From Acholoe squamosa (lineage: Eukaryota; Annelida; Polychaeta; Phyllodocida; Polynoidae): a stretch of 64,000 nucleotides of DNA. The position numbers and the translations under genes were made by a program. Where the stretch lies: contig OX439044.1 in NCBI GenBank assembly GCA_949317995.1, positions 54,082,166-54,146,165 on the forward strand. Direction: 5' to 3'. The notes beneath the pieces were generated by a model. That model worked only from the letters and a program-made list of their open reading frames with translations, was not told where the DNA came from and made no database searches. Positions 6,514-60,285 of this stretch are shown one piece after another. Positions within the stretch are counted from its first letter, which is position 1, and every line of letters begins with the position of its first letter.

Positions 6514-6585
6514 TGGAAACACCGGGTTTCGAACCCGGGACCTCTTAACTTGCAAGCAAGCACTCTACCACTGAGCTACATCCCC
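6514..6585 (-). repeat. tRNA-like unit (anticodon GCA) in the TRIM 1 left repeat
   Basis: 72 nt on the - strand fold as a type I tRNA: 7-bp acceptor with G-U pairs, TA at positions 8-9, a 4-bp D stem with AGTGGTA loop, an anticodon loop TTGCAAG giving GCA (Cys), and a perfect 5-bp T stem with TTCGAAA loop. Pol III A and B boxes are intact. The anticodon stem has a mismatch and the genome context is an LTR-like repeat, so I treat it as part of a mobile element rather than a cellular tRNA gene. Confidence 0.75.
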
Positions 6586-7122: not shown

Positions 7123-7194
7123 TGGAAACACCGGGTTTCAAACCCGGGACATCTCAACTTGCAAGTGAGCACTCTACCACTGAGCTACATCCCC
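7123..7194 (-). repeat. tRNA-like unit (anticodon GCA) in the TRIM 1 right repeat
   Basis: Second 72-nt tRNA-like copy, with the same fold and GCA anticodon. The T loop is TTTGAAA rather than TTCGAAA, so the B box carries one change. It is in the same orientation as the first copy, about 609 bp away, as expected for terminal direct repeats. Its acceptor 3' strand plus discriminator reads TGTTTCCA. With an added CCA that end would pair for 12 nt with the adjacent primer-binding site. Confidence 0.75.
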
Positions 7195-17248: not shown

Positions 17249-17766
17249 TCCACCGGATAAGCAGTGAGTACTGCTTACCCAGTGAAAGGCGGGTGCCTTT
17301 TAACGAGGGCACACCTCGGAATATGGCTGTCACGGGCTATCAGACTCCAACAAGAGTAAGACCACCCTCGGCCACGTCTTCTTCCTTCGCAGGAATAAGA
17401 CAATATGGCGGGATACTCGAACTTGAATCGCTGCGCATGATCAAACCGGCGCCTCACGTGACCATTCGAAAATGGGTCAACAACTTTCCCGCGTGCCCTT
17501 AATTAGGTCACGCGCCCTTACATAAAAACAATACAATACCCGATCGGTCGTCCGTCCGTACTCAGGGTTCGACTATGACAATTCGCTAGGTATTCTGGAG
17601 TTTATGGATAGCATAAGCATATCCATCGGATTATCCGTCCAAAACCATGGGTTCATTGTCATAGGACCTTTTCCAGAGACTCTTGACCGGCTCAAATATA
17701 CATTGAACTAGGTTACAACATATAACAGTACACAGTACAGGACAACACACTCGTTGTGTTAACAGG
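17249..17766 (-). other. Spacer between pol and the third ORF of the gypsy element
   Basis: About 520 nt without a convincing ORF. It could hold a splice acceptor or internal promoter for the third ORF, but I see no decisive signal. Confidence 0.5.
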
Positions 17767-20700
17767 CTAGGTTACGGCAGTCCGTAGCAACCTTGGACTG
17801 CGTCTAAGAGGTTTTGAGGCCTCTTTTATTGACCTGGTATCCATAAGAGCCTTTTCCAAGGTCTTCTTAGCCTTAGAAGGACCTTTCCTCTTATTTTTAC
17901 CTGCGCCTGCCGAGACTTTTTGTATCTTCCCCTGCTTTCCGGATGTTACGACAGGGGGCACCACCCTCTTCGGGTCTGCAACCTTCCGTGGCCGCCCGGG
18001 TCCTCGCTTTCGGGTCGGTACCACTTCGAGTTGCTTAACACGACTCTGTTCCATTACTTCCAATAGACCATCGCCGTACATTTCGGTGGAGGTATCCCTC
18101 CCCCTCCATGGGCGTAGTCTCGCTACATTTGACTTGTAACATTTACCAAGCTGTGATTTAATAATCACTGTGCAATCACTAATAACCTGAGTTATAGTGA
18201 AAGGTCCATCCCAATTACTGGCTAATTTCAGGTTAGCTAGAGGTTGGTGTAGACGCAGTACTCTATCCCCTAGATTAAAAAATCTAGCTTTTAGACCTGT
18301 GTCATAGCCAACTTTCTGCCAACGCGCAGTTTTCTGCAACTCGTCTCTAACCCTCTCATAGGCTTGTTTGAAATTATCCCGTAGGGATTCTACAAACATC
18401 ACCTGGCAAGGGGCTTCCGGATTCATTCTTATTACGCCGAACACCAAATCGGCTGGCATAATCAAATCCTCTCCAAAAACGAGGAGATTAGGAGAACAGT
18501 TTGTGCTCGAATGCACAGTGCCATTATAGGCATGTACCACGAATTCACATTGTTCATCCCAATCATCCATCTGCTCATTTACCAGAGATTTCAATACTTG
18601 GATCAAAGTCCTATTGAATCTCTCTACTTGTCCATCGCTCTGTGGTCTATAGGGATTAGTTCTTGTCTTGCAGATCGCCAGACAATTACACATCTCCTGC
18701 CACAGACTAGACTCAAATTCTCTGCCTTGGTCACTATGTAACATGAGTGGGACACCTAGGTGCAGCACCCACCCTTTTACAAAGGCCATAGCACAAGTAA
18801 CAGCCTTATGATCCGGTAAAGGGAACACTCGGGTGTACTTGGTATAATAATCAGACACGACCATCATACACGTGTTGCCACTAGGAGTGGGGGGAATCCC
18901 ACTAATAATGTCAACAGCTATTCTAGCAAACCTTACACCAAACAGTTCCTGGGATAATGGCAGCTTGCCTAACCCGGGTCCTGGTTTGTTCTTACAGCAC
19001 TCGGGACAGGTCTCCACCCATCGGGTGAGATCTGTACTCATGCCGGGCCAATAGTATCGTCTGGTCAGACGTTCTAGAGACCTTTTCTTTCCAAAGTGCC
19101 CACTAGTTCTATGTCCATGACAGAAAAACATAATATCTCGTCGCATAGCACTAGGTATGACAACTTGCAAGGTTTTGTTCCTATTAGAATGGTTCTTCCA
19201 TCGAAACAGAATACCATCCCGGACTTTTAGCTCGGCCCATTGAGCTAAGAATCGTCTCATCTCTCTGTTCTCCAATGACACTACGGGTCTTGGGGGACAG
19301 ATACCCTGATTAAGGAATTTAATCAAACGTGATGTGACTGCATCAGACTTCTGGAACTGCCTGATGGTCTCCAAGGACCAATTCAAGACATGTTCCGGAT
19401 GGGTTTCGAATGGAACTCGAACCCCTGCCAACACAGCATTGTGTGCTCCACAATCAGTGCACTCAGCATTTGCACATTTCCTCACTGGGATTCTAGACAA
19501 AGCATCTGCATTCAAATGCTTTGCCCCGGCTCGGTGTTCAATCTGGCTGTGATTTAGACCGAATTCGGATAGGTGCGCTAACCAGCGACCTATCATCCCC
19601 TCTGCATCTTTGAAGTTCAATAACCATCTGAGGGAAGAGTGATCAGTCCGTAGAGTGAAATCACTCCCCCACAAAAAGTGCTTGAACTTCTTCGTATAGA
19701 CCACCACAGCCAACAACTCACGTTTAGTGGTACAATAGTTTCTTTGAGATTTACTCAACGTGTTACTAGCGAAGGCTATAGGAACTTCGACCCCATCCTG
19801 GACCTGAGAAAGGGCGGCTCCTATGCTTTCATTACTAGCATCAGTATCTAGAATGAAATGATCATTCTCCGTGGGGTATCTCAACACAGGTGTGATAGCA
19901 AACAAATCCTTTATTTTCATAAAGGCCTCGTCTTGCTCGGGTCCCCAAGGGAATCGTTCCTTCCTGATCCCGGGTGTCCAGTGGGACAAACTCTGGATAG
20001 GAAAGGCAACCCTTGAATATCCTGGGATAAAGTCCCGGTAGTAGGAACAGAATCCGAGGAAGGACCTAACTTCTCTCGCATTCGTGGGTGCTTGCCAATT
20101 TGACACGGCATCCAGTTTCTCCGGATCGGCTTTAATCCCTTCATTCGAGATTATTCGCCCCAAGTAATTAATAGATCTTTTGAAAAGATCGCACTTCTTG
20201 GGTTTCAGCTTCAAACCATTAGTTATGATCCTTTCCAGGACCATACCTAAATTTTCCAAGCATTCTTCGTATGTCTTTCCAAAGACAATCACATCGTCTA
20301 GATAGACGAGACATTTTTTCCATAAAAGGTCACTTAATAAAGTTTCCATCATGGCTTCAAATGTCGCCGGTGCATTGCACAATCCAAACGGCATCACATT
20401 ATACTGGAATAATCCAATATGACTGGAAAAGGCCGTCTTCTCCATATCTTTCGGATGCATACCCACTTGCCAGTACCCGGATTGTAAGTCTAGAGAGCAA
20501 TACCATTGCTTACCTCCAAGGGAGTCTATAGTCTCATCGATCCGTGGTAAGGGATATGAATTCTTCTTGGTCATACCATTCAATTTCCGGTAATCTATGC
20601 AGAAACGGATGCTACCATCTTTCTTGGTCACCATGCACACAGGGCTAGACCAAGGACTGGTTGATGGAGTTATTACATCCTGTTCAAGCATTTTAGCTAT

Positions 20701-21960
20701 CTCCTCCTCAGCTACCCTTTTTTTGGCTAGTGGGAGTCTTCTATAAGGAATCTTAAAAGGTTCATTCTCACCAGTGTCAATCGTATGCAGTACTTTATCG
20801 GTACGCCCCAATTGTTCACTCGGTGCTGCAAAAGCTTTACGGTACTTGTACAACAAGTCAGTTAGAGCTTCACGTTGTTCATCACTTTCTACATGGCTTT
20901 CGGCTACTAGAGTGTCTAGTTCCGGGCTCCTTTCGGGTGAGGAAGGGGCTCCGGGTGCCGAAACATGTTTACAGTCTTCTATCAATTCAGATAAGACAAC
21001 CGATCCAAGGATCGTATCCTTCTGTACATAGACAGTCTTGTTACCGGTATTGGATATAGGAACCACCGTCCAAGCAGCGTTAGCTACTAGAACATCAGCG
21101 GATTCCAATCCGATACTTGACAACATGGCCATGTCTGGCTCTACAACTCCAGTTTTTCCTGAAAACTGTCTGTCCGCTCGACATAAGACATCACAGGCTG
21201 TGCCTGGTGGTATCTTAACAGTCTGGGCTACACTGGCTACACTGCTTACTTGCCTAAGTACACATTGTACTTCGAGATGGTACGGGTCTCTCACTTCCAA
21301 TATTCCCCTCTGGGAATCTAACCTTGCTCCATATAATGCAGCAAAATCCAGACCGAGTATACCATCATCCGCGATGTTCGCCACAGTAGGGGTAAGGATG
21401 AAGTCCTTATCTTCCTGTAGACTGAACCTCATACATGTTCTACCGAACGTTTGTATCATGCTACCGTCGGCCGTACGAGCATTTCCTTCCGTTGTGAAAG
21501 TTTCATGATTCGTAGGCAAAAGATCGTAGAATCTCTTAGCAATACAGGAGTGGCTAGCACCCGTATCGACAAGAAACTCAGCGGATCTACCACTCACAGA
21601 TACAACTGCGTACCACCTCCTACCTTTCAAGTAGGTAGGACTACTTGCATACTTAGCAAGTTCCGTCTTAGCGCCGAGGTCAAATCCACATCCCTTTAAG
21701 AATTCGAGACAAGGATGACCCGGGGGGAACTGGGCACACCCCACCCTGGCCAACTCATTGGCCGCTCCCTCTGGACTGATATCGGGTTTCCCCTCTGTGT
21801 TCTTCTGCCGGTTCTTGACACCTGGTGTACTATCAGTCTCCCCAGCCTCATGAGTAAGGAACTGATCAGGCTCCTTAGCTTCACTGCTGGGCGAAATCGC
21901 TAGAGGATTCTTGCCAGTACCGCAAGCTGCGATAGGCTGGCAGTCATGGCAATCACTCAC
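17767..21960 (-). CDS. pol: Gypsy Pol polyprotein (protease, RT, RNase H, integrase)
   Basis: 1397 codons counted from a GTG; the frame is open a little further upstream to about 22026 and overlaps the gag end. Domains are: aspartic protease with DTGA at 132-135; reverse transcriptase with SLDLQSGYWQ (about 489-498) and YLDD (553-556); RNase H with D705, E748 and D773; integrase zinc region H948/H950-H955-C985-C988; and a catalytic triad D1017, D1077, E1113. A GPF-type motif (WDGPFTITQV) follows near 1240. The C-terminal tail is very basic and contains an AT-hook-like RGPGRPRK, which may bias target choice or DNA binding. All catalytic residues I can check are present. Expression is probably by -1 frameshift from gag, since no ATG lies at the frame opening. 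Confidence 0.95.
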   Translation of the reverse strand: MSDCHDCQPIAACGTGKNPLAISPSSEAKEPDQFLTHEAGETDSTPGVKNRQKNTEGKPDISPEGAANELARVGCAQFPPGHPCLEFLKGCGFDLGAKTELAKYASSPTYLKGRRWYAVVSVSGRSAEFLVDTGASHSCIAKRFYDLLPTNHETFTTEGNARTADGSMIQTFGRTCMRFSLQEDKDFILTPTVANIADDGILGLDFAALYGARLDSQRGILEVRDPYHLEVQCVLRQVSSVASVAQTVKIPPGTACDVLCRADRQFSGKTGVVEPDMAMLSSIGLESADVLVANAAWTVVPISNTGNKTVYVQKDTILGSVVLSELIEDCKHVSAPGAPSSPERSPELDTLVAESHVESDEQREALTDLLYKYRKAFAAPSEQLGRTDKVLHTIDTGENEPFKIPYRRLPLAKKRVAEEEIAKMLEQDVITPSTSPWSSPVCMVTKKDGSIRFCIDYRKLNGMTKKNSYPLPRIDETIDSLGGKQWYCSLDLQSGYWQVGMHPKDMEKTAFSSHIGLFQYNVMPFGLCNAPATFEAMMETLLSDLLWKKCLVYLDDVIVFGKTYEECLENLGMVLERIITNGLKLKPKKCDLFKRSINYLGRIISNEGIKADPEKLDAVSNWQAPTNAREVRSFLGFCSYYRDFIPGYSRVAFPIQSLSHWTPGIRKERFPWGPEQDEAFMKIKDLFAITPVLRYPTENDHFILDTDASNESIGAALSQVQDGVEVPIAFASNTLSKSQRNYCTTKRELLAVVVYTKKFKHFLWGSDFTLRTDHSSLRWLLNFKDAEGMIGRWLAHLSEFGLNHSQIEHRAGAKHLNADALSRIPVRKCANAECTDCGAHNAVLAGVRVPFETHPEHVLNWSLETIRQFQKSDAVTSRLIKFLNQGICPPRPVVSLENREMRRFLAQWAELKVRDGILFRWKNHSNRNKTLQVVIPSAMRRDIMFFCHGHRTSGHFGKKRSLERLTRRYYWPGMSTDLTRWVETCPECCKNKPGPGLGKLPLSQELFGVRFARIAVDIISGIPPTPSGNTCMMVVSDYYTKYTRVFPLPDHKAVTCAMAFVKGWVLHLGVPLMLHSDQGREFESSLWQEMCNCLAICKTRTNPYRPQSDGQVERFNRTLIQVLKSLVNEQMDDWDEQCEFVVHAYNGTVHSSTNCSPNLLVFGEDLIMPADLVFGVIRMNPEAPCQVMFVESLRDNFKQAYERVRDELQKTARWQKVGYDTGLKARFFNLGDRVLRLHQPLANLKLASNWDGPFTITQVISDCTVIIKSQLGKCYKSNVARLRPWRGRDTSTEMYGDGLLEVMEQSRVKQLEVVPTRKRGPGRPRKVADPKRVVPPVVTSGKQGKIQKVSAGAGKNKRKGPSKAKKTLEKALMDTRSIKEASKPLRRSPRLLRTAVT

Positions 21961-21998
21961 TCTGGGGGTAATCCAGTTGCCATTGTGGACACCCCCTC

Positions 21999-22823
21999 TC
22001 AGTTTTCCTTCTTCACTGAGTCCTCCTTACCCGGATTGCTCCGGTAACGAGTGTTTCTATAAACTGGCTTATCTGCCTCACACTCGGCAGCATAATGCCC
22101 AGTTTCCTGACATCGGAAGCATGTCACAACACTCCTATCAGGCTTAGGCCTCCTAAGATTTTCAGTAATCTTCTTTACCAAATTGTTAACCAGGTCCTCT
22201 GATAAAGAAGGACCCGTCGTGGGTTTGGTATCGGGTTGAGTCACAGGAGGTTTAGAAGTGATCACTTTCTCCTTGACGTAACCCGGTTTCTTTCCCCAGT
22301 TCCGGTTGTACCGGGGGTTCCCTTGGCCAATGGCCCCAACGTTTTCATCTTCGTCAGGTTCCCCTGATTCGGATGAATCGGTTTCGGGTATTCCCTCCGG
22401 GATTATCATTGCTGACATCCGTTGGGGTACCTTCCCGGCAAAGATACGGGCCTTTCGATCATAATGATCTAGGGACTGGAACAAATCTGTCAAAGAGGCA
22501 TCATTCTTCCAAGCTTCACAGGCTACTGTCCTGTGTTCTTGATTCCGCAATCCTTCAATGAATTGTTTAAACATCTCATCTAGGAAGCATTCATCATCTA
22601 GTCTCCATTGAGGTCTGGCTTTATGCAACAGTCGTTGACATTCTAAGCCGAACACTTTGGCAGACTCCTTGGGCTTCTGTGTTCTTTTAGTGAACGTCAG
22701 CCAAGGGTCTTCTCCAACTATATTCCCATATAAATATGAAGCAATCTCTATGAGTTCATCATACTTCATATGGGCTGAGAGTCCTGTTATTTGAGAATCT
22801 CTCCATTGTTCCACGGCTCCTTC
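21999..22823 (-). CDS. gag: Gypsy Gag, second part: capsid C-terminal region and zinc knuckle
   Basis: The region is in frame with the preceding ORF and separated from it only by a TGA at 22824-22826. It has no ATG at the start (first usable codon GTG at 22814). The sequence continues a retroviral capsid fold (WRDSQITGL... EDPWLTFTKRTQ ... DDECFLDEMFKQFIEGL), then a linker and a CCHC zinc knuckle (CFRCQETGHYAAEC) near residue 231, typical of nucleocapsid. It ends at TGA 21999-22001, where pol overlaps in the -1 frame for about 27 nt. The overlap contains the run AAGGAAAACTGA, which may include a slip site. It is not a canonical heptamer. Confidence 0.85.
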   Translation of the reverse strand, partial: EGAVEQWRDSQITGLSAHMKYDELIEIASYLYGNIVGEDPWLTFTKRTQKPKESAKVFGLECQRLLHKARPQWRLDDECFLDEMFKQFIEGLRNQEHRTVACEAWKNDASLTDLFQSLDHYDRKARIFAGKVPQRMSAMIIPEGIPETDSSESGEPDEDENVGAIGQGNPRYNRNWGKKPGYVKEKVITSKPPVTQPDTKPTTGPSLSEDLVNNLVKKITENLRRPKPDRSVVTCFRCQETGHYAAECEADKPVYRNTRYRSNPGKEDSVKKEN

Positions 22824-24740
22824 TCAGTCGCCTTCCTTTAACCAGCATACTAAATAAGGCAGAGCTTCCGCTTTACCCCATCCATTGCAGTTAAAGACAT
22901 CCGCGCAGCCTTGATACTCCTCCTTCCAAGGGTTCTTGGCATTAAAGGGGGTAGGTATCTTAGCTACTCTACGAGCCGGATTCGTGGATCCAGTAAGGGT
23001 TAAACCCTTACTCCATTCCATGATCTCCGTATCGTCCAGACCTTGATTGTAACAATCAACACCTAAGTTAGCAATCGCTGCATTAGAATCATGCAGCGCT
23101 TGTAACCCTGGAGAAAGAGATACTCGGCGACTGAGTCTCTTTTTCCTTGGAGGATTCGTACCATAAGTACTTCTAAAGCCTCCGGATGGTGGTCCTCCTC
23201 CACCTCCTGATCCCCCTGTTCCGTATGGAGGCACCTGTGAAAAGGTGTATCCACTGGTTTGGGGAGCCGGCCCTGGACCATTGGTGGGTTGTGTATTTCC
23301 ACCAAAGCTAAAGAAACCACTATTGGGATTAGTATTTCCTCCTGTTCCATACGACTGATTTCCATTATTGAAACCAGTCCCACTGGCAGAGGGTCTGCTC
23401 CTGGAACGATCGCTTGAGGGTCCGGATCCTTGATCACATCCGGATTGCCCCCCAGCTGTACTGGAACCTCCGGGTGCTCGTCCGGTTGTTCCTCCGGACG
23501 TGTTCCGGGTGTTACCATTGGACGGATTCGTTCCTGTTTGGGACTGATTCCATCCATACTGGGCATACGGGCCATTTGGTCCCCCTAAAGGTGACTGTTG
23601 TGGCCATCCGCCGTCAAAGGTGGAGCTTCCTGCCGAGCGGCTTTGTTTAGCTCTACTCGCAGAATTATCCCCTTTATTTCCCGTACCTAGACCAAGAGGT
23701 ATAGAGGTATTATCTGTAAATCTAACCTGATGACTCTTTACTCCTTCATAACGAGGTACAGTTGTCTCTGTTACCCCGTCATTGCCCCTCAAAGAGAACA
23801 TCTGGTTACTTGTTGTGTTTAGGGCAATTCCTGAAACAGTGAAGTCTGATTCAAGAGTGCCTACTGCACGACCAGTATCTTCTAGATACTTTGACATCTG
23901 GATAGCTTTAGCCTCCAGTTCGGAATAATCATCCATCATTTTAGTCTGTTTAACAGCCAAATCTGTGGATTCGCGTATCAATTGATCTTTGAGTTTTTCA
24001 TGCTCATCGGTCTGTTTTTGGTACGTTTCCCGAGCATCTTTGAAGGCTGATTCTATTTTCTTCAGCTCTTCTTGATACTTGCCGTAGGCCGATTGAGTTG
24101 AATTTAACTCTTGTTTAGTTCTATTCAACTCATCATACGAGGCTCTGTATTCCAGATCCGCCGTATATAGTGCATCACGATACTGTTCGTGCTGGAGTTG
24201 AAAATCTTGCTTTTCTTTCTCCATCTGATCCAACAACAATTGTTGTTGGCGTCTACAACTCTGATCGTAATCGAGACGTTCCGATATCAACTGTTTGTTT
24301 TCAGTCAGAATCTTGTCTCGGGTTCCGGTCAGTGTAATAAGGTCCTTCTGGATCTTCTCGTATTCAGCTCTCATGTCTTCAAGCTCGTCCATTTTGTTCT
24401 TTTCGAATCCACATTTTTGGTGTTTAATTCGAGAACTGTATGGAGTTTCAAACATACCTGCACTAGGCTTTGGTACCTCAAATGGTAATTTACCAAATTG
24501 AGCAGTACTTTTATGCATTGGTGCAGGTTTCGAAGTACCTCCTGGCATGAATAAGGAGTCTCCAAATTCATCCAGTTCATGATGTAAGTTTCTTCTTACA
24601 TCTTCTAACCCATCAGGGTAGTGTTCTAGAGGATCCCTCCACTCCGTACCTTGGGGTGGTGACTTGATTTCACCATCCTCCATCGGGGAGTCTAGCTCAC
24701 GATTTGAGCCATTTCCCCTAACTGGGCTCAGCTCAGTCAT
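22824..24740 (-). CDS. gag: Gypsy Gag, first part: long coiled-coil N-terminus and start of capsid
   Basis: 638 codons from an ATG 43 nt downstream of the 5' LTR. Residues about 110-290 are a strong coiled coil (heptad-rich Glu/Lys/Gln/Leu), unusual in length for Ty3/gypsy Gag. About 335-530 is Gly/Ser/Asn/Thr-rich low complexity. The last 80 or so residues (PTPFNAKNPWKEEYQGCADVF...) begin the capsid domain and stop at a TGA in the middle of it. With LTRs nearly identical, the TGA is either a very recent nonsense mutation or a readthrough codon that limits full-length Gag. The neighbouring codons give no recognised readthrough signal. Confidence 0.85.
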   Translation of the reverse strand: MTELSPVRGNGSNRELDSPMEDGEIKSPPQGTEWRDPLEHYPDGLEDVRRNLHHELDEFGDSLFMPGGTSKPAPMHKSTAQFGKLPFEVPKPSAGMFETPYSSRIKHQKCGFEKNKMDELEDMRAEYEKIQKDLITLTGTRDKILTENKQLISERLDYDQSCRRQQQLLLDQMEKEKQDFQLQHEQYRDALYTADLEYRASYDELNRTKQELNSTQSAYGKYQEELKKIESAFKDARETYQKQTDEHEKLKDQLIRESTDLAVKQTKMMDDYSELEAKAIQMSKYLEDTGRAVGTLESDFTVSGIALNTTSNQMFSLRGNDGVTETTVPRYEGVKSHQVRFTDNTSIPLGLGTGNKGDNSASRAKQSRSAGSSTFDGGWPQQSPLGGPNGPYAQYGWNQSQTGTNPSNGNTRNTSGGTTGRAPGGSSTAGGQSGCDQGSGPSSDRSRSRPSASGTGFNNGNQSYGTGGNTNPNSGFFSFGGNTQPTNGPGPAPQTSGYTFSQVPPYGTGGSGGGGGPPSGGFRSTYGTNPPRKKRLSRRVSLSPGLQALHDSNAAIANLGVDCYNQGLDDTEIMEWSKGLTLTGSTNPARRVAKIPTPFNAKNPWKEEYQGCADVFNCNGWGKAEALPYLVCWLKEGD

Positions 24741-39042: not shown

Positions 39043-39708
39043 TGTAGTGGTCAGCGGAAAATGTCATGGAGAAACCGGGACTCGAACCTGGGACCCTCCA
39101 ACTTCGAAGCGGAAGCTCTACCCCTGAGCTACTTCCCCTGGCCTGACATTCTCTACCTTCCAACTACACCTGGATCGGTATGATACACACACTAGGGGGC
39201 AGTGATTACCTGGTACCGAGCTCTCTAGAGATCCCCCTCGCGAGGTGGGACCACTCGGTATCTCCACCAGGTACAGGGAATTACTGCCCCTACACTCCTC
39301 CCCATCAGCTTCAACCACCATCCACTAGCACCCGGCATTCCCCCTCAAACAAGTTACCTGGAAATTGAGGCTTTATCAAGCAGTGTTGGGGCACTCCTGA
39401 CTTCCCAGTGGATGTACCGGTACAATTACCGGATTGGTCGAAGCGTCATCTGTATCATATCGGCCCAGTTCCCGAGTCCTCAATCCATGATTGCGTTAAG
39501 ATACAGGGTTCCCGTACCTTCAATCCGTGAACCCGGGACCCTCCAACTTCGAAGCGGATGCTCTACCCCTGAGCTACTTCCCCTGGCCTGACATTTCCAC
39601 CTTCCATCCACACCTGGATCGGTATGATACACACTAGGGGGGCAGTGATTACCCGGAGACCCGCCCCTGGGGGTCTGCCACCGAGTACAGGGAATTACTG
39701 CCCCTACA
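39043..39708 (-). mobile_element. TRIM-like element 2 with tRNA-like units in its terminal repeats
   Basis: On the - strand: a 5'-position repeat (39708-39529, lacking its last ~65 bp), a roughly 230-bp interior, a purine tract GATGGGGAGGAG, then a complete 252-bp repeat (39294-39043) with TGTAGGGG and CCACTACA ends. Those are the same 8-base termini as the gypsy LTR. Each repeat holds an inverted GGGGCAGT..ATT stem and a tRNA-like unit. Flanks ATAG (39039-39042) and GTAG (39709-39712) may be a 4-bp target duplication with one change. The primer-binding site is lost with the truncated repeat end. There is no ORF. Confidence 0.7.
39067..39138 (-). repeat. tRNA-like unit (anticodon CGA) in TRIM 2
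   Basis: 72-nt type I tRNA fold: acceptor GGGGAAG/TTTCTCC, D arm GCTC-AGGGGTA-GAGC, anticodon loop TTCGAAG (CGA) and T loop TTCGAGT. A and B boxes are good; the T stem and anticodon stem each carry a mismatch. A cellular tRNA reading CGA would be Ser with a long variable arm, which this lacks, so it is not a normal tRNA gene. A 3'-truncated second copy ends at 39583. Confidence 0.7.
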
Positions 39709-46900: not shown

Positions 46901-48780
46901 AGTTGTACTTGGATAATACAGAGTTAAATCGAATCTGGGAGCTACACCTAAAATGAAATAAAATTCTGATCAATGAAATTACTCATTTCATCGCTTATGC
47001 CATGTAATATTCTGAACCATAACATGCGCTCATTAGTGGTATAATCGACATCAAATCAACCAACACATCTTAACACAGAGCATGCGTCGCAGGAGGAAAA
47101 TGGGATGTGCCCATCTTAAATAACAGATATATTTAAAAAGAAAAACTGATGTACTGGAAAATAAAAAGATAATGCCTATTTTTCGAAAATGCCTTTCCCT
47201 CCTTACTTGATTGCCATGACTGACCAGTTTTATGCTTAGAAAACTACTTGCAGAGTGGCGTGGTGATTAGGAGTCCATGTGTCTCTTACCAGAGGAACTC
47301 CAATAGATCTCATTAGGAAAGATTATAGCCTTGTCACTGGAGATTTGTTGATGTCACTGGGAGATTTGTTGATGTCACGTTCAACATAAAATTTGTTTAC
47401 CCCAATTCTCTGAAGTTTTAGAACTGTAATTAAGAACGTTTTATGATGGGGATGAGGGAATGCTGCAGAGCCCTGGGGCTCATTCCAATATACCTGACGA
47501 TAACATAGGCTTCAGATCGTCAAGAAATCAACTATATATGCCACTCATATTGACCTTTGGTGACATCAGTGCTAGAACTACTCTACCAAATCCTTTTGAT
47601 TTTAAAGATCGTATCCCACTTAAAATTCTGTCGGTTTTCAGTCAGGCCACGTTTGAATGAGTTATACATTCCTATAAGTCCATCCTAGGTTTTGAAACAA
47701 TTTGCAATATATTTCAGCATGAAGAATGGACATTATTACACAGAATTTTTACTGTAGTTCGACACTAAAACCACCGGATAACATAACAAGTGTTTTGTGC
47801 TTCATGGATGATTAATCACCTGTGTAGACTTGATTCCTAATGGCCCAATAGTGGCACCTTGTGGTGAATAGATACACTTCATACCCTCAAATTGTATTTG
47901 AAAGGAAATGCTCACACTAACAAGTGCTTGTCTTACAGATTCCAAAGGGTTACCAGATGTAATAAAGGATAGATTGTAACACTTAACATATTATAACAGA
48001 CAACACCAAAGGGCAATTAGCAATGTGGTGGTAAACATGTTATTGTAGGGGCCAGCTCTTGGTGCCCTCTTCAGTTATAGCCTCTACCTACCCCATGAAC
48101 TAGTAAAAACCTTTCCTGCCACAGAGAAGAGGTATTGTGCATCTAGGTGTCCTCTATTTGCACATACAGTGTGCATGCATATCAATATATGGTATTCACC
48201 ATTAATTGGGAGAAGGAGTAACAATGACCACAGTATGGTTCTGTAATAACTTCCCACCTGGCCATTTTAGTTGAAATTGCATCTTTAACATTAGATAAAT
48301 CAAATAATAGAAAATAATCATGCGTGCCACAGGCGATTGCTGTTAATCTCAAAGGTTTTCAATGTTTCCCCTGAATCCTTTCTGCTTGGTACATTTACAG
48401 TCAAATTCCTTCGGAAAGTGAGAGTAATCTCCACTTCCCCAGGAATAGAATATTTGCACGTCCCTCACTTATGTGTCAGTTTTCGGTGCCATCCTGTGTA
48501 TCATGGAAAGCCCAACCAGGCCAAAGTGTTGGAAAATGAAGTAATTACTTCATTTAATTGCCAGTCAAATACAACATTACATGATCATAGGTGCTGCTCG
48601 CAGTATCTTAAAACTCTAGAAAAGTGGAAAAGATGAGACAAGCATAGTGCCTGTAATTCATTCTGTTCTTGAGAATAGTTTCGACCTACCGAGTAGGCCT
48701 GTATTGAGGCCATCTGTAACTACCCAATTCTACTTAATATTTCTATGCTTTATGCTCTAAAGACATCTAAGGACAAAATG
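43949..48780. other. Non-coding DNA; old dispersed repeats, no gene seen
   Basis: 45690-45850 resembles 34150-34265 (GTAGATTGCTTCTA...ACTAGAGTGGTCTT...CATTTACAATTGGGGCT). 46813-46880 resembles 34380 and 43540. An A-rich run lies at 45715-45740. Short frames (for example 47460-47660 and 48337-48636) have no recognisable domain. Confidence 0.5.
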
Positions 48781-49065
48781 GCGTTCAGCGAGTAAGGACC
48801 TGCCTCAGACGGCGCGCTCTCTATATTTTACCGAATTCTTCATTCAAAGTGAAAACCCACGGGTAAATTTTAGTCAGAGTGTACCTTTGATGGTAGGGAA
48901 TCACCAGAAGAGGCTAAATCGAGGATATTCCCATCTAATTGCCCATTTCTGGGTGATTTATACTTTCGCCATTGGACTTCTACCTGCCTTCACCTGTCAA
49001 CACCAGTCAGCCCACCCACACCTGTCACTGCCATACACAAGCTTGACACCGGCGGCGCAGTCAAC

Positions 49066-50772
49066 ATGGCGTCAGGAGGAGTTCAGACCGATATCAAAGA
49101 ACTCATTGCTCAAATAACCAAGCCAGTAGGTACAGACTTACCAGAATCACTTATCACAGAACAAGGTAAGATTGGTGAAGCCCTTAGACATCTGTATGAA
49201 GACAATCTCACTGGTCAAGAAAATTCTAAATGGAACCACGACGAGATTATTACTTTAAAAGGGGAGAATGACAAATTAAATAATGAACTCAAGGCCCTGA
49301 AAATTCGCTTAAATGAGGCCGAAAGAGTCACACGTGTAAACAAGGCTGATATTCAGGAAAACAAAACCCAATTATGTGTCCTAGATCACAATATAAGACG
49401 TAGGAATATTATCGTCGAGGGGCTTGCATACAGACAAGGTGAGAGGACCAATGATGTGGCCTATAATCTTTTGGTATCAATCTGCCCCGGACTAGAGTAC
49501 TACGAGTTAGATTATGCATACAGACAAGGTCCTCCCAGAAATGGTATCCGCACTATGGTTATTGTAATGCTCAAAGCGAGTGTTAGAGATGATATATTAT
49601 CAAGAAAAGGCGAGCTAAGAAATAGAATGCCCAATGTGTTCTTATCTGATGACTCTAATGCTACAATAAAAAGGCAAAAATCTGATATTCGCACCATAGC
49701 CATGCTGGGCCAAGAAGCTGGGATTGATGTCCAACCAAGGGGTCGAGGACTCACCATAAATGGTAAATACTACCCACATCAGGCACTAAATGACCTACCA
49801 GTGGGATTACATCTTGCTAACGCCAAAACCTGTGTTACAGACTCGTATGTGGCCTACCAAGGTGAACTTGCCCCACTGTCAAATTTCTACCCTTGTACCA
49901 TAGTCATCAACAATATTTCATTCAATTGTGTTGAGCAAGCTTTTGCCTACAAGAAAGCAATCTATGCTGGTAAAAAAGGAAAAGCCCAACGTATCCTGGA
50001 TTGTGAGTCTCCAATTGATGCAAAAAAACTGTCCAAGTTCGAGTGTGAAGGCTGGAAAACCATAGACGAGGGTGAACTACTTGAACTCAATATCCAGAAA
50101 TTCGAGCAAAATCCCCCACTGCTGGAAATACTTATAGGCACAGGGACTAGGAAGTTGTTAGAATGTGTTGGTTCAACACACTGGGGAACAGGGTGCTCTG
50201 TTAACTCGAAGTCCACTAAAGAAGGCACATACACAGGAGCAAATAGGGGTGGTGTCATTCTAATGGAAGCAAGACGCACTCTACGAGAAAGGCACCCTGA
50301 GCTGATCCCAACCCCCCCTCCCTTAATACCACCAATGCACCAGCCCACTATTGATCCAGCTACGCCTGCTGTATCTGTTCCCATCGTCATGCCTACGATT
50401 AACGATGCTGGAGGTCCCACCATCGACATTCCTGTTACTATGCCTACCACTTCTGTAAATGCCCCAGCCACGACAACTGTGCAAGTACCAGCATCTACAA
50501 CAAAGACAACAACAACAACAACAGCAACAGAGGCACCAATCATACCATTCTCAACAGCTACTATAACTCATACCTCCCCCAAAACAACGAAACAAGTCAT
50601 TACCATACAAGACTTGCAAGCTGCACATGCTTCAATCCCACCTAGAGGTCAATTTAACACCTTTACCACCCAAGCCAGACCAGCCCCTGCCATGTCACCT
50701 GGCCATAAGAGATCAAGTGCCCGTCTACTGAATAAGTCAACTCCTAAAATCACACAGGGTCACAAATCATAG
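49066..50772 (+). CDS. LINE ORF1 protein with NADAR (YbiA-like) domain
   Basis: 568 codons from an ATG in a GTCAACATGG context. Residues about 50-110 are a coiled coil. About 110-245 match the RRM/C-terminal core of LINE ORF1 proteins (RRRNIIVEGL ... AYRQGPPRNGIRTMVIVML ... LTINGKYYP), which bind and chaperone element RNA. Residues 264-407 are a NADAR domain: NFYP (273-276), CVEQAF (E290), W330, KFEQNP (345-350), TGTRKLLE (359-366), HWGTG (372-376), GANRGGVILMEAR (391-403). NADAR/YbiA proteins hydrolyse N-glycosidic bonds in riboflavin intermediates or ADP-ribosyl adducts; in this context the substrate is unknown. The remainder is Pro/Thr-rich. The stop (50770-50772) belongs to the inserted MITE. 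Past the MITE and one CACAG duplication the frame continues 22 codons to TAA at 51301. Confidence 0.85.
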   Translation: MASGGVQTDIKELIAQITKPVGTDLPESLITEQGKIGEALRHLYEDNLTGQENSKWNHDEIITLKGENDKLNNELKALKIRLNEAERVTRVNKADIQENKTQLCVLDHNIRRRNIIVEGLAYRQGERTNDVAYNLLVSICPGLEYYELDYAYRQGPPRNGIRTMVIVMLKASVRDDILSRKGELRNRMPNVFLSDDSNATIKRQKSDIRTIAMLGQEAGIDVQPRGRGLTINGKYYPHQALNDLPVGLHLANAKTCVTDSYVAYQGELAPLSNFYPCTIVINNISFNCVEQAFAYKKAIYAGKKGKAQRILDCESPIDAKKLSKFECEGWKTIDEGELLELNIQKFEQNPPLLEILIGTGTRKLLECVGSTHWGTGCSVNSKSTKEGTYTGANRGGVILMEARRTLRERHPELIPTPPPLIPPMHQPTIDPATPAVSVPIVMPTINDAGGPTIDIPVTMPTTSVNAPATTTVQVPASTTKTTTTTTATEAPIIPFSTATITHTSPKTTKQVITIQDLQAAHASIPPRGQFNTFTTQARPAPAMSPGHKRSSARLLNKSTPKITQGHKS

Positions 50773-51229
50773 AAAGTGTGCATATGGGGCTTCACATGTC
50801 ATTCGCCCAGACATGTGCCCAGAAAAAGAAGTCTTATAAGTATGCTTCTTTTACAATAGCAAGGACACATCTGACATAAATGATAATGTGATTTTCTTAA
50901 TCTACAGGTCAAAGTAGTCTGGACCTAAGATTTTCATGGAGGTATGAAGATTGTTTCTGTAGGAAATTAAGCCCTCAACATGGCTTGTAACTCAAATGTC
51001 ATTCTCCCAGACACAATTTCGCCCAGACAATTTTGGTCATTTTGGGCACATTTTACCCCCCTGGAGCCCAAAATATGCATATGGGGCCATCAAAACCCAT
51101 ATGTAACATGAAGATCTCATCCAGCCTGACACTTTGAGCCAAAGAAATAGAGGGTGAAACTAAAATTCGGAGACCAGGGGCTGGAATACCTCCAAATTCG
51201 TCATATGCAAACCTTCTATGATTTTCGAC
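50758..51229. mobile_element. MITE copy 2, inserted in LINE ORF1
   Basis: Same family as 300-776, 472 bp, with GGTCACAAATCATAG and CTATGATTTTCGAC ends. The target duplication CACAG lies at 50753-50757 and 51230-51234. It supplies the premature TAG of ORF1 four codons after entering. The reading frame fits exactly across element plus one duplication, which confirms the boundaries. Confidence 0.9.
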
Positions 51230-51303
51230 CACAGCAGCCTAAAAGCCAGGAATCAAACACTCTGCAAAAAATGATGAGTCGTATCAGTCCTAAGAAAAAA
51301 TAA

Positions 51304-51899
51304 TGCAAAATACATCTCTATCTCAGTTGGGAGGTCAAACTGTCCCCAAAAGGTGTAATGCTATTAATACATAGACATTGTTGCATTATTGAGAATGTAC
51401 CTTGATCATTACCATGTCCGATAACGGGGCGACTGCACTTACCCACTGAAAAATGTCCCTATGCAATAAAACCACCTTGGATTGATACCAGTTTAAGTTA
51501 TATGTTGTGCAGATGATGCAATGCTATAGCTTACAGCGTCCAAAATAGGATTGATTGCATGTTAAACCTATGACGACTCTAAGGGTCGCGACGCGGTTCG
51601 ATGAACACACAACAACCATGCCTTTTCCAGGTGGGCTGCCTGACCTAGTGACACTGTGAATCAGCTGACTGTATATAATCTATCACTTAACCACTAACTC
51701 TATGATCTTAACCATGTCAAACCTTTTTCATGTTTTACACTCTAATATGTATGTAATTGTTTAATTGTACCTGAGCGCGCTGTTCCCCTTACCATGCCAC
51801 GCCATATTATGCCCAGACTAGCAACACACCGGTCACCTTTCATACCAGGAATCAATTCATTCTCAACTCATAATCCTTCATATTATACACATTGTTTAC
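51304..51899 (+). other. LINE region between ORF1 and ORF2
   Basis: About 600 nt with no open frame longer than a few dozen codons. It may hold the true ORF2 start, now decayed. Confidence 0.45.
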
Positions 51900-54719
51900 T
51901 ACAAAATAGTGTTATTAAATGAAATAGATTGTAAAAAAGGCCTTAAGGTCTTTTGCACCAACACTAGATCCATATATGGGAAATGTATTTAGATTGATTA
52001 CTCATGCTGACATTACAGGTATTGTAGTTAAAATCCTGGTTAAAACCTTCCATATTAGATGCTGACTTGTTCATTCCCGGATATCAATATATAAGGTTGG
52101 ACCGTTATCCTAATAGAGAGAAAACAGCTGGAGGTCTTATGTTGTACCTACGAGATGATTTGATTGCTGTTCCAGATCTTCACTGTTCCTTTATTAAAAA
52201 AAAGTATATGAAATCCTATGTGCGGACATAACTGTAAATGCCACTAAATATAAAATTTTTGTATGCTACCGACCACCAGACTGCCTAGATAAGGCTGCTA
52301 TATATAGTAAATTATCTGACCTGTTGAAAAATGTATCGAAAAATAGAAAAAATAATTATAATGGGTGATTTTAATGTAAATCTGCTATGCAAGAAAGATG
52401 TCGATGATTCAAAAGTCGATGAATTCTGTACCGGTAACAAGGTTTTCCAGCTAATTAATGAAGTTACACGTCCTGTGTCTAATACTCTATTAGATCATAT
52501 TTATACAAATGTCCACAATACATCTAGCTCTGGCCTAACTGATGTGCATATTTCCGACCACACTCCTATCTATATGATTATTAAATGTGATAGAACTAAA
52601 GAAAAAGCTGGTCACAGCTAGGTCTTACAGACGCTATGATTATCTTACTTTTAAGAATATGTTGATACGAGTTAATTGGGCTGATGTTGTACTATTACAA
52701 GATCCCAATGAAATGTGGGACAGAATTATTTCTGAAATTCTATCTACCTTGGATATAATGTGTCCTGTCAAACAATTAACTATACCAGAATACACTGCTA
52801 TCTGGCTAACACAACCAATCCTAGAATTGATGCGTGTTAGAGACAAGCTGTATGCCAGAGCTAGACAAACTAATAGTGTAAATGACTGGGATATTGCTCT
52901 ATAATACAAAAGGATAGTCAAAAGAGAATTGTTTAATAGCCAAAAAAATGAAATCCGCGCCTTATTGGAATATAGGAAAACGGACCCCACCAAATTTTGG
53001 AAAGCAATTCAATTATTATTACCCCATAAGACAAGTAGCACTCTTATAAAACTACGAAATAATACAACAAACCTTATTGTCCCCCCCAGCAATGTGCTAG
53101 TTATATAAATAACTTTTTTACAAATGTTGGTGTTAAACTTGCAACTGCCCTTCCACCTGCTGAGGGGAATGGCAATGAACCTCCATTGTATGGGGATCCT
53201 GGTGTAGATGTCAATTTACTGCGAGAGATATCATATTTAGACTTTATTAAATTGGCAAAATCTATCAATATTAAGAAACCTTCTGCCATTAAGCATTGCA
53301 AAAATTTTATACTTAAGGATGCTTTCTTCGCCATCTCTGAAGTCATACATGTTCTTTATAATAGATGTCTACAAAAATCTATTTTTTCCTGTGAGATGGA
53401 AGGCTGGGACAGTGGTACCCCTCCATAAAAAGCCAAACTCCCTTGACGTAAATGACCTTAGACCTATAAGCCTATTACAAACCCCAGGTAAACTACTAGA
53501 AAAGATTGTATGTACCAGACTGCAAAAATACATGGAAGATAGAAATTTGTTATGCCCTTCGCAGCATGGTTATAGAAAGAAGTACTCGACCCAAACAGCC
53601 ATCACTGAACATCTTTACACTATAATGCAACACATTACTGTTAATAAACCTGCCTACTGTCTATATTTAGATTACAAAAAAGCATTTGATACCATCTCAC
53701 ACCCAAAGCTATTGGAAAAATTGAAGGTCTTAGGATTAAATGAGGCGACTTGTAAATTTTTCAAGAATTATTTAACCCAGAGAAAACAATATACCCTAGC
53801 TAATAATATTGTATCCCCCTACCAACAGCTAACATATGGAGTCCCCCAGGGCTTGGTACTGGGTCCTGTACTTTTTTCTGTCTATATAAACACCCTACCA
53901 AAATGTGGAAACTTTGATTGTTCTTTATATGCGGATGACACTGTTGTTATAACGGACACCCCTCAAGCGATGAGGAGTGCAATCGCTAGAATTAGCAAAT
54001 AGTGTATAAATAACTCCTTGACAATCAATACTGCTAAAACAAAATGGTTGCTGTTTAATGACGTATTACATGACAATTCTCATTTTATGTTAAATGGATC
54101 TATAGTTGAAAGGGTATATAATTTTCCATATCTTGGTGTCACCTTAGATCCTGATCTAAAATTTGTAGAACACAGAGAGAAATGTGTAAATAATATTAAG
54201 AACAAAATCTATCAACTTGCCAGAGTGAGAAAATTCTTAGACATTCCTTCCGCCTTAGACATATACAAATGCATGATTTTACCTATAATAGATTATTGTG
54301 ACTTCATATGGGACAGAGACTATAGAGGGGAATCTGCTGAATTACAATTACTACAAAATTGGGCCTTAAGAATTGTTTATATGGTCTGATTGGAAGAAAA
54401 TCCATTAATGACCACCATACAAATACAAAATGCTAGCGGCTGTCATGTACTAAGTAGAAGGAGGGATGTACACTTATTATTTTATGCTTTTAGACTAGCC
54501 CAAAACCCCAACTTAGTTGACAATAGGAACCTCCCCACCAGATTACACACTGGTAAAAGACTACTCGTTCCACACTGTCTAAAACCCATATTTGTCAGAA
54601 GTGCCTTTTATGGAGCCTGCTGTAGGTGGAATCAATTACAATCTAAATACACTCACATTGACACAATAGTGCTTTTCAAGAAAGAAATTAAAAATAACTA
54701 TCCTGATTGTTTTATGTGA
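51900..54719 (+). pseudogene. LINE ORF2 relic: endonuclease and reverse transcriptase
   Basis: The endonuclease part begins near 51918 (a GLKVF.TNTRSI-like start) and includes GGLMLYLRDDL, a YRPP block (~52267), MGDFNVNLL (~52360), DHIYTN and SDHTPIYM. The RT part has DYKKAFDTI (~53665), a PQGLVLGP block (~53843) and YADD (~53929). It is broken by several frameshifts before 53385, a TAA at 52902, and two in-frame stops in the RT/C-terminal frame: TAG 54000-54002 and TGA 54387-54389, the latter consistent with a CGA to TGA change. The C-terminal region after 54018 resembles the CR1-type tail (LLFNDV, FPYLGVTLDPDLKF, NWALRIVY). Inactive. Confidence 0.85.
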
Positions 54720-54756
54720 AAACTATCTTGATGTACTGTCATACGCTATTTTTTTT

Positions 54757-54780
54757 ATCTCATCTCATCTCATCTCATCA
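54757..54780. repeat. (CTCAT)n microsatellite near the LINE 3' end
   Basis: Four to five TCTCA units just after the ORF2 stop. Many CR1/L2-type LINEs end in a short tandem repeat, so this could be the true 3' terminus. Confidence 0.7.
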
Positions 54781-54990
54781 TTAGTTGATTAATGATATTG
54801 ATCTGAGGCACGGTCAACCATTTTACCACCTTGATTGTCAATGGCTTGGACAATTATGTTGAACCTTGAATGGTGTTTTTTTATCAGATACTTGTATCAT
54901 TGAGGGGGCCTGATTTAACAACCACAATGCGTGGGTATTCTTAATGCATCTACTATGTATATGTATTAACCCAATAAACTACTTTAAAAA

Positions 54991-56093
54991 AAGGGCTCCC
55001 CTGCAATATGACATACAAACAAATAAAAACACATAGAAGCTGAGAAGCGAAAGTAGCATAATACAGCTTAATAGTAAGGGTTAGGGGCCAGCCCCAGGGT
55101 GGTGGGCTTGTATAAGTTTGCAATCACCTACTCGTCACCCTTCGTCACCTCATTTGAATTCCCATCACAAGCCTACCACTTGCTCTCCCTCATCCTTTCC
55201 ATCAATACTGAAAGGTACAAAATCCCATTCCATTTATGTGCTATACTCATTTCCTTCCCCTATTTAACAACTGATGCACCGGCTATTTTCACCGTTATAG
55301 GTTCCATCCACCTCTAGTATCGTATATTGGGAACTTAAGATGTAAAGTATAGATTTAGATTTAGATATAGATAAGAAAGCCGCTATTACAAGCTTTTCCC
55401 CTTTTCATTTTAAAATATGCCTTTTCTTTTAATATTTGAAGGCCTCCAAATAGTTGTCTGGGCACCAAGTGATAAAAGGCAACCTAGATAAACACCTTGG
55501 ATATTGACTAAGATTAGCTCTGTAGTCACAGCTGCAATATCCCCTGCCACATTTGGCCTTCCACTAGTCCCAGGAGTACATTCTAAATGGGGTTCACTCA
55601 GGCGGTTCTTTAAGGCCAGCCTCCTCTAGGTGGCAAGGGATGGCAGCGTAACATGCGGCACAGGTTTTTCTTTGTTCTGTTTGTTATTGTTGACATTACA
55701 CTTCAGTTTCACATGAATGTCGTGGCAATTTCGTGGCAATATTGCATACCTGTTTCGCCTAGAACAATGTGTCGCCTGTGACGCTGCCACCCGTGTTGCC
55801 TAGTGGAGCCCTGGCATCACTCATTCGTTGGAATTGGTACTTCCAAAGTGATTTAGTAATTTTACATGTCACTGATTCCAGAATACCCACACCCCTGAGA
55901 GGCCAGCAATAAAATCACATTTATATGACCTCAATTATGGATGGGTGGGTTGGCTGAGGGGCTTCGTCCCCTACAGGGCAGTAAATATAAATGACACTGG
56001 TCATGTTAGCTTAACCCTATGCGGTGTGTTTTGTTGCAAAGTTCCATTCAGGATTCATGGAAAACCTCTCTTGAAAAAGATTCATGAAAAAGT
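54991..56093. other. Non-coding DNA; no gene seen
   Basis: Includes GTATAGATTTAGATTTAGATATAG near 55350 and no recognised frame. Confidence 0.45.
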
Positions 56094-58362: not shown

Positions 58363-60285
58363 CTTTTTTTTTTTTTTGGACTTGCTCATTGCATTAATGA
58401 ACTGCTATGTTCATTTAAATAATGCTATAGAGCAGACCAAGTTTTATTGATTTTTCAAAGGAAAGTCACAAATAAAACAATACAATAACTTCATGAATCT
58501 TGACAAATATCAATATGAACACAATCAGCAGATGGAAAAATAGGGACTGGCAATATTCACTCAATAGGGTATTTACATGGAAAGTACAGACAAACAAATT
58601 AAAAGCAAAAAGAGATAGACAGTAAATAATATGTCATACATAGAGATTTGTGTGTCTACACATTATTTCAGTACATCATGATTACAGCTAAATACACCTT
58701 GTCTTTAGTTCAAATAAGTGATAATTAGAGTTGGTAGTATATGCTGTTATATGCATATGGGAACATCAGCAATATCAATATGGATGTAAACATGAAAAAG
58801 GATATGAATGTGAGTATGAATATGAATATGAAGCGGCACAGTTTCCACACCTGCTTCTCATTATCAATTATAACCCAATTTCAGGTTCAACCTTATATTT
58901 TCTATCTTCATCACACCCTCTTTGAATTTTACCTTTGTCGTAGCTTTCTGAATCTCCTCAGGTAGAGTATTCCAGAGAGCCACCCCTCTGTACCATGGCG
59001 ATCTTTTATAGTGTCTAGTAATAACCCTAGGTAGTTCAAAAACGATCTTCTTTTGAGACCTTGTATTATAAGATTGTGGTCTATTGAACACAGTCTTTGA
59101 TTTCTTATACATTAAGCATAATAATAGCATGTCAAATCTTTTCTCTAACACTGGAACCTTACAAATTTCATGCAACTCCTTCACACTATACCGTCTAATA
59201 TTGCATTTCAGACAAACTCTAAGAGCTCTATTTTGCAGTCATTGTAATGCTGCAAGACCATCCTCATTACAACTAGTACTTATAAATGAACAATATTCTA
59301 TAATTGATCTGATTGTACAACAGTATATCTTTACACTCTGCTCTTGTGTTAAAAACTTTCTTAACTTAGCAAACCTAAATAGTTTATTGCATACATTTCT
59401 TTTAATAATTTTAATCTGTTTATCAAAACTAAGTTTACTGTCAATATGTACACCTAGATATGGAAAGAAGGTGACAGTTTGCACAGTGCTGCCATTGAAG
59501 TCTATAGTAGAATCCGGACATCTTTTTAATTTATGAGCACTACAAAACCACATAAATTTAGTTTTAGTTGGATTTACTGTTAGTCTGTTTTCGATAACCC
59601 AACACTTAAAGTTAATTACATCTTCATTCAAATTGTCATTAACCAAGTCTACATCTTTGTTAGAACTATAAATCACAATGTCATCAGCATACAGTTTAAT
59701 CTTGCATTTTTTTAAGACCTTAACAACATCATCAATATATAGGACAAACAACAGGGGACCTAAAACTGATCCTTGAGGGACACCGTAATCAATATCTTGG
59801 CTTGAGGACAATTTATTACCATAGCTAGTTCGTTGTTTTCTATTTTCCAGGTAACTTTTAAACCATAGAAAATTAGATTTACTCAAACCAAGTTTACTGA
59901 GTTTAATTAGCAATTTTGAATGTAATACACTGTCAAATGCTTTAGTGAAGTCTATAAATAGAGCCCCTGTTATCAGACCATTGTTTCTACATTCATAAAG
60001 CTCATTAACAAAGTCAAAAGTGGCATCACCAGTACCTGTCCCTTTTTTGGTTTTCACAAAAAGTACCATTTTTCTTCATACTTTCACATAGGTAATAATA
60101 CATAATTTTCTCAATGACTTTAGATGGCATTGGTAGTATTGATATGGGTCGCCAATTTTTTACCATTGCCAAATCCCCATCCTTAGGTAATGGTCTTACA
60201 ACTGCCATTGCCCAACATTTTGAAAAAATACCCCTGTCCAAACTAATTTGTATCAGATGAGTGAATTGATTTATCAACAACAATA
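58363..60285 (-). mobile_element. 5'-truncated CR1/L2-like LINE
   Basis: On the - strand an RT region and C-terminal tail are followed by a roughly 500-nt 3' untranslated region with AATAAA near 58445 and a 16-nt A tail (T run at 58363-58378 on +). The 5' end is abrupt near 60285, before the start of RT, as in incomplete target-primed reverse transcription. It is a different family from the LINE at 48.8 kb: protein sequence differs and it lies on the opposite strand. Confidence 0.8.
58864..60283 (-). pseudogene. LINE reverse transcriptase relic
   Basis: Three consecutive pieces. 60283-60026 has the RT start (VVRPLPKDGD...NWRPISILPMPSKVIEKI). After a frameshift near 60050, 60069-59239 has FIDFTKAFDSV, GVPQGSVLGPLLF, YADDIVIYS and FFPYLGVHID. 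An in-frame TGA at 59239-59241 (consistent with CGA decay) is followed in the same frame by a tail to 58864 with RSPWYRGVALWNTLPEEI, typical of CR1-like C-termini. Catalytic YADD is intact, but the ORF is truncated and broken, so it cannot be active. Confidence 0.9.

Follow-up and report, generated by a model that had tools for sequence, protein, structure and literature searches.

A YbiA-type NADAR domain in the ORF1 protein of a two-ORF LINE from the polychaete Acholoe squamosa

The ORF1 protein of a LINE in the Acholoe squamosa genome joins an L1-type RNA-binding core to a C-terminal NADAR domain. The protein is linked to an endonuclease–reverse transcriptase ORF2, the active-site residues of its NADAR domain are conserved, and that domain is under strong purifying selection. 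Of the components of LINEs, ORF1 proteins are understood least, and few of them contain enzymes. We read the whole as a two-ORF LINE whose RNA-coating ORF1p carries a probably catalytic NADAR domain of the YbiA subfamily that would erase base-linked ADP-ribose, a reading on which we are evenly divided. The element lies in a stretch of 64,000 nucleotides, here called the window (C10:54082166-54146165), of a 1.48 Gb assembly of 63 contigs that was searched for further copies. Its features are collected in Table 1.

Table 1. Features of the LINE in the window, in window positions.
Feature	Position	Strand	Evidence or remark
LINE element, full-length	48775..54992	+	homology limits against genomic copies; similar ends in 9 copies
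5' UTR	48777..49065	+	start of homology with copy L094, upstream of ATG
ORF1, 568 aa (residues 1–564 native; 565–568 and stop insert-derived)	49066..50772	+	single ATG frame
Coiled coil, residues 27–111	49144..49398	+	AF2 model
RRM and CTD, residues 112–245	49399..49800	+	AF2; L1 ORF1p by profile and by fold
NADAR domain, residues 255–409 (Pfam 269–407)	49828..50292	+	Pfam, profile, AF2, fold
E290 (E43 of P. nicotianae NADAR, E88 of E. coli C7)	49933..49935	+	67/67 proteins, 18/18 genomic copies
K297 (K50; K95)	49954..49956	+	65/67 proteins, 18/18 genomic copies
E366 (E125; D171), YbiA-subfamily glutamate	50161..50163	+	65/67 proteins, 18/18 genomic copies
Pro/Thr-rich ORF1 tail	50293..50757	+	translation; low model confidence; dN/dS 0.36
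DNA-transposon-like (MITE-like) insert, inverted termini	50758..51229	.	CACAG at 50753 and 51230; second copy at ~303-777
ORF2, endonuclease and reverse transcriptase, several frameshifts/stops	51894..54716	+	RVT_1 7.1e-28 on 53319-53999
3' UTR, (TCTCA)n stretch and AATAAA signal	54717..54992	+	

Architecture, copies and linked ORF2

The Pfam NADAR model (PF08719) matches ORF1 at residues 269–407 with 83.5 bits against a gathering cut-off of 35.1 (E = 2.6e-23), and a profile built from the window's protein (P0001) and six relatives matches both L1 ORF1p (2ykp, 2.9e-9) and a NADAR structure (8bau, 6.6e-27). The AF2 model consists of a long coiled coil (27–111), an RRM (about 114–196), a CTD (about 199–243) and the NADAR domain (255–409), whose fold was confirmed by structure comparison. 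Coiled coil, single RRM and CTD together define a type II ORF1; those of human LINE-1 are alike in sequence and fold, but the human protein lacks a NADAR domain. The first-pass annotation, made from the letters of the sequence, had placed a NADAR domain directly after a LINE ORF1 core in one uninterrupted frame. Profile searches and structure prediction bear out the domain and its position behind the core; the 568-residue ATG frame also stands, except that its last four residues and stop codon are provided by an insert that has replaced the native C-terminus.

Genomic copies of the element are dispersed and have common ends, as expected of a LINE. The 5' end shared with relatives begins at ~48777, homology with L094 starting before the ORF1 ATG, and ATGGC stands near this end in eight of nine copies compared. 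At the other end, the (TCTCA)n stretch was considered as the terminus and rejected, as the element continues to about 54992, where it ends in CCCAATAAACTACTTTAAAAAAA. The 3' ends of all nine copies are A-rich and resemble one another (CCCAATAAAC-ACTT-AAA or a variant of it), in differing flanks; a search of these nine for exact repeats of at least 7 nucleotides gave no convincing target-site duplication.

P0001 has at least 77 scored genomic matches, itself counted (7576 first-look candidates), and 50 of the 77 have no internal stop. The nearest copies are 96, 96, 91 and 81% identical to it, most others 51–72%, and 14 only 40–44%. Twenty of the 76 other copies were fetched (L093–L112; ranks 2–8 and 10–15, plus seven of the 14 at 40–44%), and because those past the first five were chosen as unbroken, the sample is biased to intact ORF1s.

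In 20 of the 21 loci, counting the window, ORF1 is followed in the same orientation by an endonuclease–reverse transcriptase ORF2 related to that of the window. None was found in the span of L103, and it is partial in those of L097 (160 residues), L101 (665) and L096 (784). The spacer between the ORFs, an extrapolated length, is 533–733 bp in 14 of the 20 loci, and the 1111 bp of the window correspond to ~640 plus the insert. Stretches of this long spacer are unevenly conserved in L093–L112, and it may hold a translation signal. Judged by stop-to-stop lengths, both ORFs are open in six of the 20 fetched copies (L098, L099, L100, L108, L109 and L112), with an ORF2 of 939–947 aa; in L111 the open length of ORF2 is 901. 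Distances between ORF1s and between reverse transcriptases are closely correlated (Mantel r = 0.954, n = 16, 0 of 5000 permutations). The open ORF1 and broken ORF2 of the window had raised the suspicion of two separate insertions, which linkage and co-divergence in the other copies reject.

The ORF2s of L099 and L108 match Exo_endo_phos and RVT_1 in Pfam and contain an LYADD motif but no CCHC. At ~940 aa, against 1275 for human L1, ORF2 gives the impression of being unlike the L1/Tx1 type in size and motifs, and by eye, from its motifs, we take it to be of CR1/L2 (Jockey-superfamily) type. Its PDB matches include L1, R2, group II and retron-type reverse transcriptases, which do not discriminate the clade.

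Active site and selection

E43, K50 and E125 of the P. nicotianae NADAR (E88, K95 and D171 of E. coli C7) are reported to be mechanistically important (PMC11543638). The equivalents in ORF1 were followed through 67 NADAR-bearing proteins (P0001–P0076 minus nine without a complete NADAR; P0010 and P0073 among them are not RRM ORF1s), and the predicted active-site residues are nearly invariant in the family: the exceptions are one M and one E in the K297 column, and one H (P0010) and one A in the E366 column. With the E43 and K50 equivalents and a glutamate, rather than Asp or His, at the E125 position, the domain belongs to the YbiA subfamily. The motifs listed in the first-pass annotation are all present in the translation, but the YbiA-type catalytic glutamate is E366 and not E401 of LMEAR. 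E401 was rejected as a catalytic residue since it corresponds to E173 of C7, reported not to be functionally relevant (PMC11543638). This LME glutamate is retained in just 23 of 62 proteins.

E290, K297, E366, W330, W373 and K320 are invariant in 18 genomic copies, window included. Among the 67 proteins, the equivalents of W89 and W133 are kept in 67 and 64, that of D130 in 53 and that of R93 in only two. The D130 (8bau) position, residue 370 (50173-50175), is Ser in all 18 genomic copies, so that with the R93 equivalent the contacts to ADP-ribose are partly lost; the Ser possibly marks a change of specificity in this genome's copies. The E290, W330, E366, K297 and W373 columns rank 3, 4, 6, 10 and 12 in entropy among 153 NADAR columns (65 proteins, P0010 and P0073 dropped). 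The S272, N273, K345, L399 and R403 columns, with no known catalytic role, are equally conserved, and part of the NADAR conservation is therefore structural. Averaged over columns, entropy in the 65 proteins comes to 2.17 (NADAR) and 2.16 (RRM/CTD). P0010 is a protein of 997 aa whose C-terminal region looks SGNH-like by eye; a His at the E125 position, as it has, is stated for phage NADARs (PMC11543638), and P0010 is possibly another retroelement ORF.

Selection was measured by Nei–Gojobori counts on eight pairs chosen from groups, without a tree, so as not to share branches; one of them, L107–L112, has almost no synonymous change. The dN/dS of the NADAR domain (0.053) is level with that of RRM and CTD (0.052; p = 0.89) and lies far below that of the tail (0.361; p = 1e-15), with the coiled coil at 0.166. 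Choosing unbroken copies removes stops, but this alone should not push the NADAR value under that of the tail. No other result speaks as strongly as this contrast for the domain having work to do for the element; together with the Pfam E-value, the low dN/dS rejects the notion of a chance or hitch-hiking domain.

Proposed function and competing readings

In the proposed mechanism, ORF1p would coat the LINE RNA, as its families suggest, and because of this coating the NADAR domain would travel in the particle, in many copies. There it would hydrolyse ADP-ribose on bases, most likely at guanine N2, of the LINE RNA, the cDNA or the nicked target, so that reverse transcription could still proceed on a readable template when nucleic acid is ADP-ribosylated by host enzymes. 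An ADP-ribosyl N-glycosidase activity is our best guess because the NADARs tested, an oomycete YbiA-type enzyme and four E. coli types, removed ADP-ribose from guanine in DNA (PMC11543638, PMC11125620). Pierid butterflies and six edible clams are described as having enzymes that ADP-ribosylate DNA at guanine N2 (PMC11209040). Marks of this kind can therefore be made in certain invertebrates, which together with the guanine chemistry favours erasure from LINE RNA, cDNA or target. An analogous proposal has been put forward for RNA viruses (PMC9503650). The first-pass annotation had likewise suggested that ADP-ribose might be removed from the element's RNA, DNA or RNP, perhaps against PARP-type defence. 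The removal gains from the true NADAR domain, its conserved catalytic residues, its low dN/dS and the published guanine activity; given that activity, a nucleic-acid ADP-ribosyltransferase would be as good an enemy as PARP. YbiA hydrolyses guanine-ADPr in vitro but failed to rescue cells from DarT1 (PMC11125620), and natural substrates may therefore differ. The ADP-ribose contacts lost at the D130 and R93 positions and the structural share of the conservation also speak against the proposed mechanism.

A dN/dS as low as 0.05 would mean that ADP-ribose chemistry is important for retrotransposition in the host. Since intact copies exist and the three residues of the active site are known, host ADP-ribosylation of transposon nucleic acid becomes directly testable.

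A different substrate, namely RNA ends or small ADP-ribose derivatives (in RNA repair, NAD caps or ADPr signals), is unlikely, though it has several precedents: NADARs have been predicted to act in RNA repair and on soluble ADPr derivatives (PMC9503650), processing of RNA intermediates has been suggested (PMC12477816, of 2025), and trans-splicing in nematodes requires SNA-3, a protein containing three NADARs (PMC9303266). The direct biochemistry, however, concerns guanine-linked ADPr and riboflavin intermediates. Less probable still is a non-catalytic reader or scaffold that would, for example, steer the particle by binding host protein that carries ADP-ribose. The variability of several secondary ligand contacts and the frequent loss of the LME glutamate are what such a domain might show, but the equivalents of the three mechanistically important residues are nearly invariant, and a domain that only reads would have little use for the glutamate of the E125 position. 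In bacteria and plants YbiA has a housekeeping role as an N-glycosidase of riboflavin intermediates. Such a role is very improbable here despite the common superfamily, since it makes no metabolic sense in fusion to an RNA-coating protein and one of the residues named as critical for that activity, which from its spacing to Trp appears to be the Asp at residue 370, is Ser in all 18 genomic copies.

The insert bears on whether the window copy, with its intact ORF1 and broken ORF2, has become a host gene. It belongs to a MITE-like repeat of ~470 bp whose two copies in the window are 90% identical, with inverted ends of about 24–30 bp; the site is uninterrupted in L093 and L094. (The other repeat copy interrupts a coding-like stretch that looks capsid-like by eye.) Domestication would account for the comparison of the window with L093, which differ by no frameshifting gaps in ORF1 and eight in ORF2 and have a dN/dS of 0.04–0.05 outside the tail. 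We nevertheless regard it as highly improbable: the family is multicopy with a linked ORF2, low dN/dS is common to all of it, the native ORF1 end has been replaced, the other five pairs of the window's subgroup do show gaps in ORF1 (2–4, with 4–10 in ORF2), and the contrast between the ORFs reaches only about p = 0.01 by our own arithmetic.

Relatives, precedents and origin

The closest prior report that we found, in open-licence PMC literature (subscription journals, Repbase reports and preprints lying outside), describes NADAR in the Pol of a Gypsy element from Ectocarpus and, within a single sentence, in the ORF1 proteins of several Crassostrea gigas Tx1 LINEs (PMC12477816), and so covers the bare ORF1–NADAR fusion. 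New here are the complete two-ORF copies, linkage and co-divergence, the evidence on active site and selection and, as an impression, an ORF2 that does not look like L1/Tx1. The oyster elements likewise carry a YbiA-family NADAR in a LINE ORF1, whereas the ORF2 of the window's family is ~940 aa long, without CCHC and, by eye only, of CR1/L2 type. The Ectocarpus element is also a retroelement with NADAR, but an LTR element with the domain in Pol. P. nicotianae NADAR (8bau) and E. coli YbiA (2b3w) are stand-alone enzymes, and the D130 and R93 equivalents differ in the LINE family. ZfL2-1 ORF1p also bears an enzyme, but this is an SGNH esterase, and ORF1ps of this kind are reported to lack structural RNA-binding domains (PMC3905857). 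NADARs in animal RNA-virus polyproteins, proposed to act against host ADP-ribosylation, are also part of a mobile RNA genome, but one without reverse transcription (PMC9503650).

ORF1s have been classified into types I–V, with possible transfer between LINE lineages (PMC4120745). We suggest tentatively, and with more doubt than confidence, that the ORF1-borne NADAR is an on-board ADP-ribose eraser that would reveal an unrecognised defence against retrotransposons by nucleic-acid ADP-ribosylation, and that the NADAR–ORF1 module passed from one LINE superfamily to another, being joined to Tx1 elements in oyster and to a CR1/L2-like ORF2 in A. squamosa. Animals in which NADAR genes have been reported include molluscs and cnidarians (PMC11125620), and some of these genes may be transposon ORF1s.

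Protein relatives of P0001 numbered six at first; three were added, and residues 138–449 of P0006 as query then gave 67 matches (P0006 counted). In 62 proteins, the window's included, with at least 100 residues of RRM/CTD and 120 of NADAR, distances in the two regions are correlated (Mantel r = 0.69, 0 of 5000 permutations). The RRM tree places P0001/P0002 with P0004/P0005 (97/90) and P0003 (85/78, long branch) outside the main group, inside which the NADAR-less P0074–P0076 cluster together. In the NADAR tree, 63 of 65 LINE rows share one side of a supported branch with P0010, P0073, P. nicotianae NADAR and a single viral-contig NADAR out of 32; on the opposite side are the remaining 31 together with YbiA and P0004/P0005. 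P0004/P0005, also RRM–NADAR ORF1s, fall among the viral-contig NADARs, the starred branches require at least two label changes, and a second NADAR capture is possible; an AU test did not reject a single clade of all LINE NADARs (p = 0.43). Two viral scans and a genome-contig scan found no relatives. A further viral scan gave 41 NADAR loci, at which no tblastn match to the ORF1 queries began before their residue 200; this check covered those 41 and not the 43 loci of another viral scan.

Several other elements lie on the minus strand of the window. A Gypsy-like LTR element (13533-24740) encodes protease, reverse transcriptase, RNase H and integrase at 17770-21960 and a zinc knuckle at 22002-22814, and its other large frames have no Pfam match. 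Three Rfam tRNA matches (6514-6585, 7123-7194 and 39067-39138) inside repeated blocks probably represent a tRNA-derived SINE. A second reverse transcriptase fragment (59242-60069; RVT_1, 2e-27) belongs to a different LINE, as it is only 30–49% identical, over matched stretches, to that of the NADAR-bearing element.
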